A stretch of 5,679 bases of DNA from Chitinivibrionales bacterium (GTDB lineage: Bacteria > Fibrobacterota > Chitinivibrionia > Chitinivibrionales > JANQEN01): NCBI GenBank assembly GCA_030593665.1, contig JAUVGS010000162.1, forward strand, positions 1 through 5,679, written 5' to 3'. Shown here in pieces: positions 1,361 through 5,674 of this stretch. Below the pieces are notes generated by a model. The model was not told the origin of the DNA. It did not search any database and saw only the letters and a list, made by a program, of their open reading frames with translations. Positions within the stretch are counted from its first letter, which is position 1, and the number at the start of each line of letters is the position of its first letter. A program made the translations under genes and the position numbers.

Positions 1361-1501
1361 TTAATAAAAAACGGCTGTTTTAGATTGTGTATAGGTATCC
1401 ACACGAAGAGTGACGATATAGACCCCGGCGGGTACTCTCGAAATGCGGTTCCATTCAACGTTATACTCTCCCGCTGCCTGCCTGGTATTGCTCACCGCCA
1501 T
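1361..1501 (-). pseudogene. Orphan C-terminal sorting-domain fragment (relic of another Kelch-type gene)
   Basis: Read on the minus strand from ATG at 1501 to TAA at 1361-1363, this gives 46 residues that match the C-terminal end of genes A and B. RQAAGEYNVEWN corresponds to RQQAGKYEISWN of gene B, VPAGVYIVTLRVDTY corresponds to VPAGIYFVRLTVDDY, and the end is TAVFY followed by a stop. Only the last three strands of a FlgD-Ig/T9SS-type sorting domain are present; there is no propeller, signal peptide or start region. A TAA lies in frame four codons before the ATG, and the ATG is two bases after the stop of gene C. It therefore looks like a stranded tail rather than a working gene. Gene C itself ends in a different version of the domain, so a C-terminal replacement or deletion here is plausible (inference). 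Confidence 0.65.
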
Positions 1502-1503
1502 GA

Positions 1504-2886
1504 CTATTCTTTAGAAACATTTACTATCTTACTTGTCACCTTTTCAGCAGTTTCAATTTTGAAGATATACATGCCGCCGCCGACAATCATGCCGGAATCA
1601 TCTGTTCCTGGCCAGCATATACTGTGACTGCCCCTGGTCATTTCTTTATCAACAAGACGCCGTACCAACCGGCCTGTAATTGTATAAATACCAATGGTTA
1701 CTCTACCGGCAATTGACACGTAAAAGTTGATATTACCATTACCATGCACAGTGTTTTGAAACAGTGTAACTTCCTTTGGCATCTCTGAAACGTTGTTTAT
1801 GGCGGTTTCACCCTTAAAACACCAGACATCGTTATAACAACCTCCGGAAGCATTGCAACCTCCCATTATCCACATTTTTCCATCATAAACAAACGAGGCA
1901 TGAGTATGTCGGGGAGTCCAACCTGCTGATGTTTCTTTTGTCCAATTTTTACCATCCGAAGAGCGCCAAACATCGTTATATGCTTCACTATTACCGTTAT
2001 ATCCACCCATCATCCATAGTTCATTATTATAAACAACACAAGCCAACCCCCGTCTTTTTTCCCATGGAGCGGATGCTGTTTCCTGTGTCCAATTTACCCC
2101 GTCATCAGAAGACCAGACATCATTATGTACTGTGCTGTTAGACACACCCATTTTCACCCCTCCCATAATCCACATTTTGCCCTTGTAAACAACTGCGGAA
2201 AAAGCTGCCCTCTCCGGCCAACAGTTTGAAGCGGTCTCTGTCCAGTTAGTGGCATCAGGTGAAGACCAGACATCCGCCACTGTTGTGCTTGTCGCAAATC
2301 CGCCAAGCAGCCAGATTTTATCTTTGTAAACAAGCGCACACGAAGCACACCGTTTACTCCATCCGGGTGTATTTGTTACACCATTCCATTTCTCTCCATT
2401 GTTTGAACGCCAAACCTGGCTTGAGCATGGCCCGCTTCAACAGGTACTTCCGCCCACAGTATACATCTCCCCCTTAAAAACAACTGTAGGAAAATTGCTG
2501 CATATATTAAAAAGAGCGTCTTTACTCACCGTAGTCCAGGAAGTACCGTTTGTTGAATACCAGATATCTTCATAATCTTCGCTTTGCGAATCCAGACCCT
2601 TCAGTATCCACATTTTTCCATCATAAACGACAAAAGAGTGTTCGCTTCTGGCTGCCCAGGTAGCGGAAGCGGTTACCTGACTCCAGCTTCCCCGAGCCCA
2701 CAGAGAGGCCGGTAGTAACACAATAAGGAGTACTATTGCCGCCAAAACAGGTTTACAATAAGCCATACGTTCATGCCGGTATAATCCGCACCTCCCGCGG
2801 GAAGGGTGTTTTGCGCTCATGTTTACCGGCATGCCTGATTCACCACACCAGCCTCCTTTGTTTTTTACCATAGTATTCTTTTTCAT
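1504..2886 (-). CDS. Gene C: secreted six-bladed Kelch protein, candidate selenoprotein (Cys-Sec)
   Basis: Read through the in-frame TGA at 2437-2439 this is 460 residues, ending in TAG. ATG 2886 is chosen because GGGA lies 8 bases upstream and the protein starts MKKN; GTG 2892 and ATG 2766 are alternatives. The hydrophobic signal core lies near residues 46-63 (VLAAIVLLIVLLPASLWA), after an unusually long, charged N-region encoded partly by a palindrome. Six Kelch blades follow (pattern DVWxSxDGxNW...R...VVYxxKMWIMGG): two before the UGA and four after. Sec would be residue 150, in GGSTC-U-SGPCSSQVW. Residues 372-460 form a FlgD-Ig-like sorting domain of a different subtype from genes A and B. 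The product should be exported and cell-surface or extracellular; substrate and partner are unknown. Cysteines are frequent (KRCASC, GGCNASGGC). Conventional gene calling would split it into two ORFs. The alternative is a nonsense-mutated pseudogene, which the two intact halves and the matching paralogues argue against. Confidence 0.8.
2396..2430 (-). promoter_or_regulatory. SECIS-like hairpin of gene C
   Basis: The minus-strand palindrome GCCAGGTTTGGC (2409-2420) begins 16 bases after the UGA. It forms a 4-bp stem with a GGTT loop whose first base lies 21 bases after the UGA. An outer helix CCAT (2427-2430) with ATGG (2396-2399) is possible. Bacterial SECIS elements are known to sit just behind the UGA inside the coding frame and to show a G-U-containing apical loop. 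The same 12 bases occur behind the UGA in the other two genes. Confidence 0.65.
2437..2439 (-). other. In-frame UGA in gene C, candidate selenocysteine codon
   Basis: TGT-TGA-AGC interrupts the frame right after a Cys codon at the end of blade 2 (GGSTC-U). The frame continues uninterrupted on both sides. Genes A and B have a UGA in the same Cys-UGA context, so an ancestral, retained recoding site is more likely than three mutations. Confidence 0.75.
2772..2833. repeat. REP-like palindrome inside the N-terminal coding region of gene C
   Basis: Perfect 10-bp arms CATGCCGGTA (2772-2781) and TACCGGCATG (2824-2833) enclose a GC-rich core, CACC-TCCCG/CGGGA-AG-GGTG (2789-2808). The core is itself self-complementary apart from two unpaired bases. 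Base composition differs clearly from the AT-rich surroundings. If translation begins at 2886, the element encodes about residues 18-38, between MKKN and the hydrophobic signal core. This resembles palindromic elements that insert in frame into proteins, as known for Rickettsia palindromic elements (family relation not shown). If translation begins at 2766 it is a 5'-leader hairpin that buries a GGGAGG sequence. Confidence 0.65.
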
Positions 2887-2934
2887 TATCACATTCCCTA
2901 GACGTTAATAAACAGTTCAGATTTTTCAAAATGC

Positions 2935-2967
2935 TGAAATTGGAAATTCATGTTTTTCCCAATTTCA
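2935..2967. terminator. AT-rich hairpin between genes B and C
   Basis: TGAAATTGG (2935-2943) pairs perfectly with CCAATTTCA (2959-2967) across a 15-base loop. It lies in the 130-base gap between gene B and gene C. It could weaken read-through after gene B or be a processing site. It lacks a GC-rich stem and a clean U-run on the minus strand, so a true terminator is doubtful. A short tandem AATTTCAAATTTCAAA overlaps its right arm. Confidence 0.3.
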
Positions 2968-2988
2968 AATTTCAAACCGTGAATGGCT

Positions 2989-3017
2989 ATTATACATGCA
3001 ATTACCTCTATTATTAA
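2989..3017 (-). promoter_or_regulatory. Candidate sigma-70-type promoter for gene C
   Basis: On the minus strand a perfect TATAAT (2989-2994) is preceded, with a 17-base spacer, by TTAATA (3012-3017), which matches TTGACA at four of six positions. It sits about 100 bases before the chosen start of gene C and just after the stop of gene B. Gene C may therefore have its own promoter in addition to read-through from genes A and B. Confidence 0.35.
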
Positions 3018-3024
3018 AATGTGA

Positions 3025-4314
3025 CTATTTGACGACAACTTTCTCAACCAGCCTGTAATCATCAACGGTCAACCGGACAAAATAGATACCGGCAGGAACA
3101 TTCGCGATCTCATCATTTCTACTGTTCCAGCTAATTTCATACTTTCCAGCCTGCTGTCGCTCTTCCGGCAGCACATACGTTTTCCTGCCCATACCATTAT
3201 ACACACTGAGTTTTGTCAACGCAGGTGTTGACAGGGTATAGGTAATACGGATTGAGCTTGAATGATTCGACGATGACACGGTAAAAGCCGTACTTGTCAA
3301 TAAGTCGGGTAGTATTTCTTCATTGATTTCCGTGGCTTCCTGATAGTACCAGACATCGCTGAATCTGTCTCCGCCAGCATTTCCACCTCCCAGAACCCAG
3401 ATCTTATTATCATATACAACCGAGGTATGACAAGCACGCGCCGCCCATCCTGCTGAAGCAGTGGCTTCTGTCCAGTTAATACCATCGGCGGAATACCACG
3501 CGTCACCATAACACGTAACACCGGATCTGCCGCCCATTATCCAGATTCTATTGTTATAGACAACTGCGGTATGATAGCATCGTATCTGCCATGGAGCTGA
3601 AGCAGTCACCTGTGTCCAGTTTTTGCCGTCAGCAGAATTCCAGACATCATTTTTAATACTATTTTGCGATACTTCCCCGCCAAGCAACCACATTTTGTCC
3701 TTAAAAATAACCACTCTGTGTCCGGTTCGTTTCCATCCCGGAGAATCTATTACCAATGTCCAATCCACACAATTATTCGATTGCCAAACCTGGCCGAAAG
3801 TATTACCACTTCAGCAGCCCTCATCACCGCCGATTACCCAGGCTTTATCCTTAAAATTGACACAGGCAAATCCGGCACATGCCTCAAAAGGTGCTATGGC
3901 AATTCCCTTATTCCAGCTCGTTCCATTGGAGGAACCCCATATATCTTTTCGCTTGCCGTATGAATCACTCGGATCCGAACCTTTCAGCACCCATAGTTTA
4001 TTATTGTATGAAATCGCAGCGTGATCAAATCTATTTGTCCATCCTGCTGAATTAGTAGCACTTGTCCAGTTTATTCCATCGGATGAATACCACGCGTCAC
4101 TCGGATCTCCGGAAGAAAGACCTCCAATTACCCACATTTTATTATCGAATACAATAGAGGCGTGAGATAATTTTCTCTGCCAGGCAGCGGAAGCTGTTGC
4201 CCGTGTCCATGTCATTTGAGCAAATGTAGATGATTCAAACAGTAATATCAAAAACAGAACACTCAGAATACCTTTACCCGATATTCGTATCATACACACT
4301 TCTTTCTTGGTCAT
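3025..4314 (-). CDS. Gene B: secreted six-bladed Kelch protein, candidate selenoprotein (Cys-Sec)
   Basis: With the in-frame TGA at 3811-3813 read as Sec this is 429 residues, ending in TAG. The ATG at 4314 has AGGA 10 bases upstream; an internal ATG (MIRISGKG, residue 8) is also possible. Residues 1-33 are a signal peptide with core ILSVLFLILLF and cleavage near STFAQ. Three Kelch blades precede the UGA and three follow, each with the pattern DVWxSxDGxNW...R..H..VVYxxKMWxxGG. Sec would be residue 168, in GGDEGC-U-SGNTFGQVW. Cysteines shortly before it (FEACAGFAC) and after it (SNNCVDW) could be resolving partners. Residues 341-429 form a FlgD-Ig/T9SS type A-like sorting domain ending VPAGIYFVRL...VEKVVVK. 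The gene follows gene A after 40 bases and is probably in the same operon. Its role is unknown; a surface or extracellular redox-active propeller is inferred. Confidence 0.82.
3776..3798 (-). promoter_or_regulatory. SECIS-like hairpin of gene B
   Basis: GCCAGGTTTGGC (3783-3794, minus strand) starts 16 bases after the UGA, the same distance as in gene C. The stem can be extended by TTCG (3795-3798) pairing with CGAA (3776-3779), leaving a 3-base bulge on the 3' side. That gives an 8-bp bulged helix under a GGTT loop. The bulge is on the 3' side, whereas the known E. coli fdhF element has a 5' bulged U. Confidence 0.68.
3811..3813 (-). other. In-frame UGA in gene B, candidate selenocysteine codon
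   Basis: TGC-TGA-AGT follows GGDEGC at the end of blade 3, with an intact frame on both sides. The preceding Cys makes a vicinal Cys-Sec pair. Unlike genes A and C, where the site closes blade 2, here it closes blade 3. Confidence 0.78.
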
Positions 4315-4354
4315 ATTCTGAAAGTCCTAAAGCTTCTCATTCGGGATTCACTTC
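4315..4354 (-). other. Short gap between genes A and B (operon link)
   Basis: Only 40 bases separate the stop of gene A from the ATG of gene B, on the same strand and without a terminator-like hairpin. AGGA lies 10 bases before the ATG of gene B. Co-transcription of A and B is likely. Confidence 0.5.
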
Positions 4355-5674
4355 TCACTTCATAAACACAACCTTCTCGACCTGGTATTTATTACCGGCT
4401 TCCAGGCGAATGAAATAGATACCGGCAGGAACTAAAGTGCCGGAATAACCGATACCGTTCCATATAATTTTATACGTACCGGCGGGCTGGTTCCCGTTGC
4501 ACAGGGCAGCTATCTTATCTCCTGCTCCATTATAAACATTTACTCTTGTCATCTCAAATTTTGACAAAACGTACCTAATGGATACACTGGCAAGCCGACT
4601 TGACGTTACGGTTAATTTCAACATATTCGAAGACGCAGTATTTATGTTATCCGAAACTTCGGTCGCGCCCTTATACCACCACACATCATTTAACTTGCTG
4701 CCGCCATCACCGGCTATCACCCATATCTTACTATCAAAAACAGCGGAACTGTGTCCATACCTCTTGGACCATTGAGCCGAAGCAGTGGCCTGATTCCAGT
4801 TCTCTCCATCAGTTGAATACCACACGTCATTGTACCGGGTATCAGTATAGCCAACTCCTCCACCTATTAACCACATTTTATTATCATACACAACAACCGT
4901 ATGGCCGTCTCTCTTTGCCCATGCTGCTGAACCGGTAACTTTTGTCCAGTCACTTCCGTTAGTTGAGCACCACACATCATTATGATCTTCAAAACTTGTT
5001 ACCCCGTATGCACCGCCGCCAAGCAGCCACATTTTGCCGCCAAAGGCAACTACAGCGTGACCTATTCTTGCTTCCCATGGCGCTGAAGCAGTAGCCTGAG
5101 TCCAGTCCTTTCCATTGGAGGAGTGCCAGACATCATTTTTATACGCTGCCGCCATGCATCCGCCCATTATCCATATTTTATTGTCATGGACAACGGCAAC
5201 CGGCCCCTCACGGTCGCCCCATGCCGCCGATTCCGTTACCTTAGTCCAATCACTTCCATTACTCGAATGCCAAACCTGGCTGAATCGGAGACCTCAACAG
5301 CCGTCCCGGCCACCAAGCAGCCATAGCTTTTCATTGTATATAACACAACCCATACCGGTACTCATGGCATAGGGTGTTTTTGAATTGGCACATGTCCAGT
5401 TCTGCCCATCAGTTGTATACCAGGCATCATTGTACATATTATCGTTTGATACATATCCGTTTAACATCCACAGTTTATTATTGAATGCTATTGATGAATG
5501 ACTGGATCGAATTTTCCATTGTGCTGATTGTGTCGCGCAAGTCCAGTTTATTTGCGCGGATAGCGGAGTTATGCACACTAGTAAAAGCAACAACCCGACG
5601 AATACGGCACCTGTCTGTGGCAACGAATGCCCGATTCTGAAAAATTCCTTCAGTAAAGCAATTGCCCATTTCAT
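4355..5674 (-). CDS. Gene A: secreted six-bladed Kelch protein, candidate selenoprotein (Cys-Sec)
   Basis: With the in-frame TGA at 5294-5296 read as Sec this is 439 residues. The ATG at 5674 is only five bases from the window end, so its ribosome binding site and promoter are not visible and an earlier start cannot be excluded. Residues 1-41 form a signal peptide with core AVFVGLLLLLVCI and cleavage near TPLSAQ. Two Kelch blades precede the UGA and four follow (WIMGG, WLLGG, WLIGG and WVIAG ends). Sec would be residue 127, in GGRDGC-U-GLRFSQVW; the Gly-Cys-Sec-Gly string resembles the redox tail of animal thioredoxin reductases, but the context is unrelated. Residues 349-439 are a FlgD-Ig/T9SS-like sorting domain (VPAGIYFIRL...VEKVVFMK). 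The true stop is also TGA (4355-4357), with another in-frame TGA six codons on. It is the first visible gene of the array, with gene B 40 bases downstream. Confidence 0.82.
5262..5290 (-). promoter_or_regulatory. SECIS-like hairpin of gene A
   Basis: GCCAGGTTTGGC (5269-5280, minus strand) starts 13 bases after the UGA, one codon closer than in genes B and C. CTC-C-GA (5285-5290) can pair with TCGAG (5262-5266) with a single bulged C, forming an outer helix below an internal loop. The apical loop is again GGTT, with its first base 18 bases after the UGA. Confidence 0.68.
5294..5296 (-). other. In-frame UGA in gene A, candidate selenocysteine codon
   Basis: TGT-TGA-GGT follows GGRDGC at the end of blade 2, with the frame intact on both sides. 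The context Gly-Cys-UGA matches gene B. The following base is G here and A in genes B and C. Confidence 0.78.

Follow-up and report, generated by a model that had tools for sequence, protein, structure and literature searches.

The three tandem genes on a 5679-base stretch of DNA from a Chitinivibrionales bacterium (GenBank assembly GCA_030593665.1, contig JAUVGS010000162.1; the whole stretch is referred to here as the window) are, with high probability, selenoprotein genes, in which an in-frame UGA and a following hairpin with a GGTY loop would insert selenocysteine (Sec) into a secreted Kelch propeller. Their products very probably constitute a new selenoprotein family. A candidate family of this kind was put forward in the original prediction, which was made from the DNA letters, and it is supported by the conserved UGA site, the hairpin with its codon choice, the constrained reading frame past the UGA and the Sec genes in metagenome-assembled genomes (MAGs) of relatives, all of which were read from sequence; Sec insertion, export and role we infer.

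All three Kelch genes lie on the minus strand. Translation with TGA read through gives exactly one inner in-frame TGA per gene (3/3), and the halves on both sides of each TGA are open reading frames (ORFs), as originally described. The features are as follows.

4355..5674, minus strand: gene C, predicted secreted six-blade Kelch protein of 439 residues if read through; the inner TGA is codon 127.
5294..5296, minus strand: Sec-type TGA of gene C, DGC-U-GLRFSQVW; aligns TGA to TGA with an L001 gene.
5269..5280, minus strand: selenocysteine insertion sequence (SECIS)-type hairpin of gene C, GCCA-GGTT-TGGC, loop 17 nt after the TGA.
3025..4314, minus strand: gene B, predicted secreted six-blade Kelch protein of 429 residues if read through; the inner TGA is codon 168.
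3811..3813, minus strand: Sec-type TGA of gene B, EGC-U-SGNTFGQVW.
3783..3794, minus strand: SECIS-type hairpin of gene B, GCCA-GGTT-TGGC, loop 20 nt after the TGA.
1504..2766, minus strand: gene A, predicted secreted six-blade Kelch protein of 420 residues from ATG 2766, with one inner TGA.
2437..2439, minus strand: Sec-type TGA of gene A, STC-U-SGPCSSQVW; aligns TGA to TGA with an L001 gene.
2409..2420, minus strand: SECIS-type hairpin of gene A, GCCA-GGTT-TGGC, loop 20 nt after the TGA.

The start of gene A is more likely to be ATG 2766 than GTG 2892, up to which the frame remains open, and the terminal stop of gene C is also TGA. In each window gene the inner TGA directly follows a Cys codon (STC-U, EGC-U and DGC-U), as had been noted; it stands after GG-x(2-3)-C and 5–6 codons ahead of the tripeptide QVW. 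Counted by eye, the blade that holds it is the third in gene B and the second in the other two genes. The expectation that the joined halves form complete, predicted secreted propellers also holds, with six blades (by eye), matches to Kelch families and to a sorting-type tail, and N-termini that are hydrophobic and signal-peptide-like in all three genes (read by eye).

The UGA site is conserved beyond the window. When the three N-terminal halves were compared with a protein database, six proteins matched, comprising two of the window's own and four (P0126–P0129) on three other contigs of 30836, 18851 and 6733 bases. These four, read as protein only, end at exactly the same Cys residue. Two end in GGRDGC and share 82 and 69% identity with gene C; of the other two, which are of gene A type, one ends in GGSTC and one in AGSTC. 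The matches listed for the C-terminal halves include P0219 and P0216 on contigs of 30836 and 18851 bases, sizes that match two of the N-half contigs, from which we infer that these halves share contigs. Initial single-protein scans of viral contigs and genome contigs gave no match. A scan of one genome per species (84,980 species) matched 523 relatives, and the analysis continued with the 80 best of them (78 loci). The best two relatives are Candidatus Aegiribacteria MAGs (50 and 44% identity over the best segment) and the third is a Chitinivibrionales MAG. Seven further genes with the same UGA site were found in three MAGs (L001 and L003 contribute two and three, and L002 and L033 one each, L033 sitting on the contig of L003), such that the site is present in all ten genes read, from four sources. 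QVW follows the UGA in 10/10 by motif. In a ten-protein alignment, Trp135 (gene C numbering) is invariant and Gln133 and Val134 are nearly so, with gene B out of register; as the full three- and ten-protein alignments shift gene B by one blade, sites were compared using trimmed alignments or by motif. Chance or assembly error was rejected because the same site recurs in separate assemblies.

The distribution of the site was surveyed at the DNA level in 356 genomes of three phyla using a pattern of TGA, 15–18 bases and QVW with its flank. This pattern occurs in 2/42 genomes of the Aegiribacteria phylum, 1/167 of the Chitinivibrionales phylum and 0/147 of the WOR-3 phylum, although genomes related to the last can have Sec genes. 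The seven places matched are exactly the seven known genes, and the reversed control gave no matches; since the pattern fixes QVW, variants would be missed. Among the relatives' loci, most further pattern matches outside L001, L002, L003 and L033 were rejected as out-of-frame noise.

Each UGA is followed by a hairpin (GCCAGGTYTGGY; GCCA[GGTY]TGGY) with its GGTY loop 17 or 20 nt away (10/10 sites). Four base pairs of the stem are kept in all ten genes, while the outer three pairs are often unpaired. Pairing amounts to 81%, compared with 24–40% when the partner strand is slid, and among 500 shuffles the observed pairing was reached by none and the covariation score by one. Across 1.17 Mb of loci, with both strands searched and duplicates included, the hairpin 12-mer is found at a single additional distinct place. 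The bacterial SECIS (bSECIS) model, as given in section 5 of PMC13188914, describes a stem-loop with a G in the first two loop positions at 16–37 nt from the UGA, and this geometry is present at all ten Kelch sites. Escherichia coli fdhF, used as a yardstick, likewise has one in-frame UGA, and folds with a GGTC loop that GCA/TGC closes and that lies 18 nt downstream of the Sec UGA; it differs in that the Kelch fold is unrelated, the Kelch products are predicted to be secreted, their UGA is usually beside Cys and a 4 bp stem is kept. A selD gene of the Chitinivibrionales MAG (L121) carries the hairpin GTCCA-GGT-TGGGC, and those of L116 and L120 carry other G-loop hairpins. In the mechanism that we propose, the conserved GGTY-loop hairpin would recruit SelB and tRNA-Sec, and Sec would be inserted at the UGA in place of termination.

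QVW is the coding face of this hairpin, and the 12-mer also sets the preceding residue, which is Ser, Gly or Cys (all NGC codons). QVW stands at the position of the usual DVW of Kelch blades, and it might be kept for the protein fold alone with the hairpin as a by-product of its codons. We consider this very improbable, as in all ten genes Gln is encoded by CAG, Val by GTY and the residue before them by an NGC codon, a choice with a joint product of 3.7e-12 against the genes' own codon usage (this assumes ten independent genes, which they are not fully). Moreover, QVW is absent from this position in 11 aligned ordinary homologues, and the motif occurs in no other of 229 protein records (taken from the best 120 of 2698 and the best 120 of 5823 matches). 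QVW is apparently a case of a protein motif set by an RNA signal.

The reading frame continues past the UGA in all ten genes read as DNA, and in five gene pairs TGA is always aligned with TGA and never with another codon. In the cleanest comparison, the L001/L002 Kelch pair, the ratio of nonsynonymous to synonymous substitution rates (dN/dS) is 0.34 before the UGA and 0.17 after it; an FG-GAP pair (see below) gives 0.11 and 0.15, and dS is saturated or near-saturated in the other three pairs. By this measure the second half is under purifying selection in the measurable pairs. These values bear on the possibility that the TGA is a true stop, leaving a short N-terminal protein and a remainder that is a separate or decayed gene. 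Database predictions do split the genes in this way (P0005, P0124–P0129, P0132, P0216 and P0219), but the C-terminal half starts within a blade and lacks a signal-peptide-like start (by eye), its dN/dS is low, and a single stop is kept at the same site in ten genes, even between genes whose synonymous sites are saturated or nearly so. Termination at this codon is thus extremely improbable. Homologues truly ending at the UGA, which the original prediction had named as evidence against itself, are not what the ten genes represent, and their downstream half is constrained where measurable.

Any non-stop in-frame TGA would look identical in one gene, and we also considered TGA as a sense codon (Trp or Gly) or as a target of read-through by a near-cognate tRNA. 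One Kelch locus from a Gracilibacteria MAG (L039) has at least three in-frame TGAs. We take this group to read TGA as Gly (code 25); Kelch genes of this type can mislead a search for selenoproteins, and L039 was excluded. In the Sec-type Kelch family, by contrast, 22–26 TGG codons stand against a single TGA per gene (two in L033), the TGA site is not a Trp position in relatives, gene C terminates with TGA, seven genes have Cys as the adjacent codon and L033 has TGA there, and a SECIS-type hairpin after each site is accompanied by Sec genes in the MAGs. TGA reassignment was rejected on the codon counts, the TGA stop of gene C and the site context, and recoding or read-through of this kind is highly improbable.

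Sec genes were sought in the three MAGs that carry the family (G001, G002 and G003), which are relatives of the window's own organism. Genes for selA, selB, tRNA-Sec and selD are present in 3/3. The tRNA-Sec genes score 75.0, 76.4 and 66.7 bits, with a second copy in the third MAG at 61.3 bits, against a cut-off of 47 that is poorly specific (exceeded in 14/18 genomes of the set and in 5/14 control genomes). SelB is full-length at 334–355 bits (cut-off 242) in all three MAGs and SelA is above its cut-off in all three, with two copies of each in G003. Each MAG has two selD genes above the cut-off, and every one of the six has a single in-frame TGA; the contig of the L001 cluster carries one of them. 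SelB exceeds its cut-off in 12/18 genomes, including 9/15 without the family, and Sec genes alone do not predict the Kelch family. The Chitinivibrionales MAG G003 (6.3 Mb) contains two sets of selA, selB and tRNA-Sec (on G003:C6 and G003:C244), which reflect either two systems or a mixed bin.

Several observations weigh against assignment of these genes as selenoprotein genes. The downstream stem-loop that the original prediction named as a mark of bacterial selenoproteins is found as a GGTY-loop hairpin at all ten sites, but the published energy rule (at most −7.5 kcal/mol; PMC13188914 adds that some bSECIS elements fail the model) is satisfied at only 5/10 Kelch sites in our own implementation. 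Genes B and C fail this rule and gene A passes only via a different hairpin. The rule is also unspecific: when every codon of the 13 scanned genes is considered, 10–23% pass it. The Kelch sites rank from 7 of 418 to 108 of 416 among all codons of the same genes, which is a weak ranking; the combined Fisher value for the 13 genes is 3e-4, with one gene (L001V) entered with a wrong downstream TGA and kin genes taken as independent. One of the five covariation measures, the number of double-change pairs, was equalled by 191/500 shuffles. The family is rare, being present in 3/356 genomes of three phyla. The adjacent Cys is not universal: the proposed Cys-Sec pair is found in 7/10 genes, and the other three have Sec-Sec, CxxU (CPT-U) and Gly-Sec (GG-U), one each. 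Lastly, the original prediction anticipated that relatives would have Cys at the UGA position, and no Cys form was seen among the matches listed (none at the Sec position in the 229 protein records described above), which is unusual for selenoproteins. PMC12013277 states that nearly all selenoproteins have Cys homologues and gives GrdA as an earlier exception. The reverse exchange does occur in L033, where the codon beside Sec, which is Cys in seven of the ten genes, is itself TGA; this gene has two consecutive in-frame TGA codons (L033:3301-3306, plus strand; EG-U-U-GG) and is a candidate double-Sec site.

Pfam Kelch models match the joined proteins with E-values down to 5e-29. An AlphaFold2 model of gene C, calculated with Cys in place of Sec from 36 sequences, has a mean predicted local distance difference test (pLDDT) score of 90 and a predicted template-modelling score (pTM) of 0.71. 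Residues 126–127 of this model lie in a turn between strands 116–123 and 130–137 of blade 2, which places Sec at the predicted tip of the hairpin of one blade. The solved structures nearest to it in the PDB are Kelch domains, namely those of LZTR1, plant specifier proteins, KLHDC proteins and KEAP1. Identity over the fold matches listed is 15–22%. The best eukaryotic matches (LZTR1, KLHDC2/3/10 and KEAP1), with a template-modelling (TM) score of 0.77 by target length for LZTR1, have no Sec; they are intracellular ligase or sensor subunits. Ordinary six-blade Kelch proteins (P0050 and P0056 from candidate division WOR-3, and P0037) are closer, with 39–41% identity to gene C and the same length, blades, N-terminus and tail, and they lack QVW and the Cys-Sec site in the blade.

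Export by the type IX route is likely from the tails and from a sortase in the MAGs. The tail of gene B scores 27.2 bits with Por_Secre_tail (NCBIfam; cut-off 23) and 25.4 bits with FlgD_ig, below the cut-off of 27, while those of genes A and C score 28.5 and 32.2 bits with FlgD_ig; the Por_Secre_tail cut-off is reached by gene B only. A full-length PorU-like sortase of the type IX secretion system is present in 3/3 MAGs, above the cut-off in two and at 393 versus 420 bits in the third. Once translated in full, the protein would leave the cell via its predicted signal peptide and type IX-like sorting tail, and the exported six-blade propeller would display Sec, usually beside Cys, at the predicted tip of the blade hairpin.

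We tentatively suggest that this residue serves as a solvent-exposed selenol/thiol redox site outside the cell, in anaerobes, where its chemistry may involve thiol-disulfide, polysulfide or peroxide. This choice is based on the position of Sec, which is usually beside Cys, once in CxxU and once in Sec-Sec, on the predicted turn and export, and on the naming of the relative Candidatus Aegiribacteria from a sulfide- and polysulfide-rich anoxic lake, where the organism is presumed to be a fermenter (PMC4846661). Since no Cys form was seen, a redox role is left without a comparison. The main rival to it accepts Sec insertion and holds that the site binds a soft metal, an organometal or a cofactor outside the cell instead of performing thiol-type redox chemistry. 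Several families with a CU motif are metal-linked by name (MerB-like SaoL, HgcA and metal-binding MbdU in PMC13188914), and some members of the Kelch family have an extra Cys close to the site (YCCQVW, YCQVW and FCQVW). Family scans of the joined proteins matched neither an oxidoreductase or other enzyme domain, which would suit such binding, nor a metal-binding family, which would not. The CxxU and Sec-Sec members have the arrangements of redox sites and the Gly-Sec member has no adjacent Cys, and we regard metal or cofactor binding as rather unlikely.

No described Kelch-type selenoprotein family had been recognized in the original prediction, and this agrees with the catalogue of May 2026, whose 119 prokaryotic families and subfamilies contain no Kelch, propeller, FG-GAP, VCBS or WD40 term in the available text, the whole of Table 1 included (PMC13188914). 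The envelope selenoproteins named in that table are UshA-like, an ExtKL multiheme cytochrome, an MtrB/PioB-type barrel and a TonB receptor with FCYXU; by name these have Sec outside the cytosol, as proposed for the Kelch proteins, and their folds do not include Kelch, FG-GAP or beta-helix. Neither the deep-Sep paper (PMC12013277) nor a 2022 review (PMC9312934) has a Kelch or propeller term in its accessible text. In the records available, which do not cover preprints as a class, the papers listed for selenoproteins and Kelch mostly concern KEAP1, KLHDC, selenium nutrition or disease. Nothing was found for selenocysteine with Aegiribacteria, selenoprotein with Fermentibacter or selenocysteine with FG-GAP, and selenoprotein with type IX secretion gave rabbit work only. 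If our assignment is true, selenoproteins would gain through the Kelch family both a fold and a location, the type IX-exported surface, that are new to them. A family with no Cys form seen is easily missed by methods that rely on Cys/UGA pairs, which may explain the oversight, and it offers direct tests of the role of selenium outside the bacterial cell.

The Kelch relatives also point to a secreted selenoproteome in little-known anaerobes. In these organisms the Kelch proteins are joined by at least two further groups that carry Sec-type UGAs. Locus L104 (Aegiribacteria CSMAG_2402) has five same-strand genes within 8 kb with one Sec-type UGA each, comprising three beta-helix-type, one FG-GAP and one Kelch protein. 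The genes of the two additional groups are as follows.

L104:2973-4403, 5242-6744 and 6762-8192, minus strand: beta-helix-type genes, one TGA each before S-[ST]-CGGGGVHC.
L001:1595-2851, plus strand, and L104:1701-2969, minus strand, also L106–L115: FG-GAP (VCBS) genes, in-frame TGA in GUCTGAT-x-PQV.

The beta-helix-type sites read USSCGGGGVHC and USTCGGGGVHC and have a GTGGGGTCCAC hairpin. One of the three genes matches a Pfam beta-helix model and the other two are placed by likeness to it; their sorting tails are above the cut-off in two and below it in the third. The FG-GAP proteins are a second, larger candidate selenoprotein family. Their TGA occupies the same column, GUCTGAT-x-PQV, in 10/10 genes inspected (two from Aegiribacteria and eight from further genomes), and it is followed by the hairpin CCRC-AGGTY-GYGG, whose covariation is weak (one double-change pair, with 94/500 shuffles as good). 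FG-GAP matches occur in 36/42 genomes of the Aegiribacteria phylum, and the FG-GAP site pattern occurs in 0/147 WOR-3-phylum genomes. At least one in-frame TGA is present in 95/98 matches listed, a count that may include terminal stops, as the query extended beyond its own stop codon. No sorting-tail model matched the FG-GAP protein of L001. Taken together, we consider it rather probable that anaerobes of the Fibrobacteres–Chlorobi–Bacteroidetes (FCB) group export a Sec coat, in which at least three unrelated secreted folds (Kelch propeller, FG-GAP propeller and beta-helix) with Sec on a conserved loop, GGT-loop SECIS elements and type IX export would perform a surface chemistry that has not been described. 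Given that no Cys versions were seen, this chemistry would require selenium itself. A further in-frame TGA in L104 (9265-10062, minus strand) lies inside a sorting-type tail (NISC-U-LTGNG) and may be Sec, an error or a pseudogene.

The remainder of the window offers no decisive functional clue from neighbouring genes. An Rfam scan (E up to 1) and a tRNA search of the window gave no match. A phage origin was rejected, as phage records gave no match to the whole window and no PHROG was matched by gene C or the ORF at 1-675. This ORF (minus strand) is the start of another protein with a signal-peptide-like N-terminus, truncated by the end of the window; it has no family match and no in-frame TGA in the part present. 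Between it and gene A, at 1121-1225, is a 12 bp perfect inverted repeat (AAATCGCAAGTT / AACTTGCGATTT) that encloses a stem-like stretch containing a T run and may be terminator-like or a mobile remnant. Directly downstream of gene A, at 1361-1501 (minus strand), a sorting-type tail (RQAAGEYNVEWNRISRVPAGVYIVTLRVD...) stands alone with no propeller attached; it may be left over from a fourth copy.

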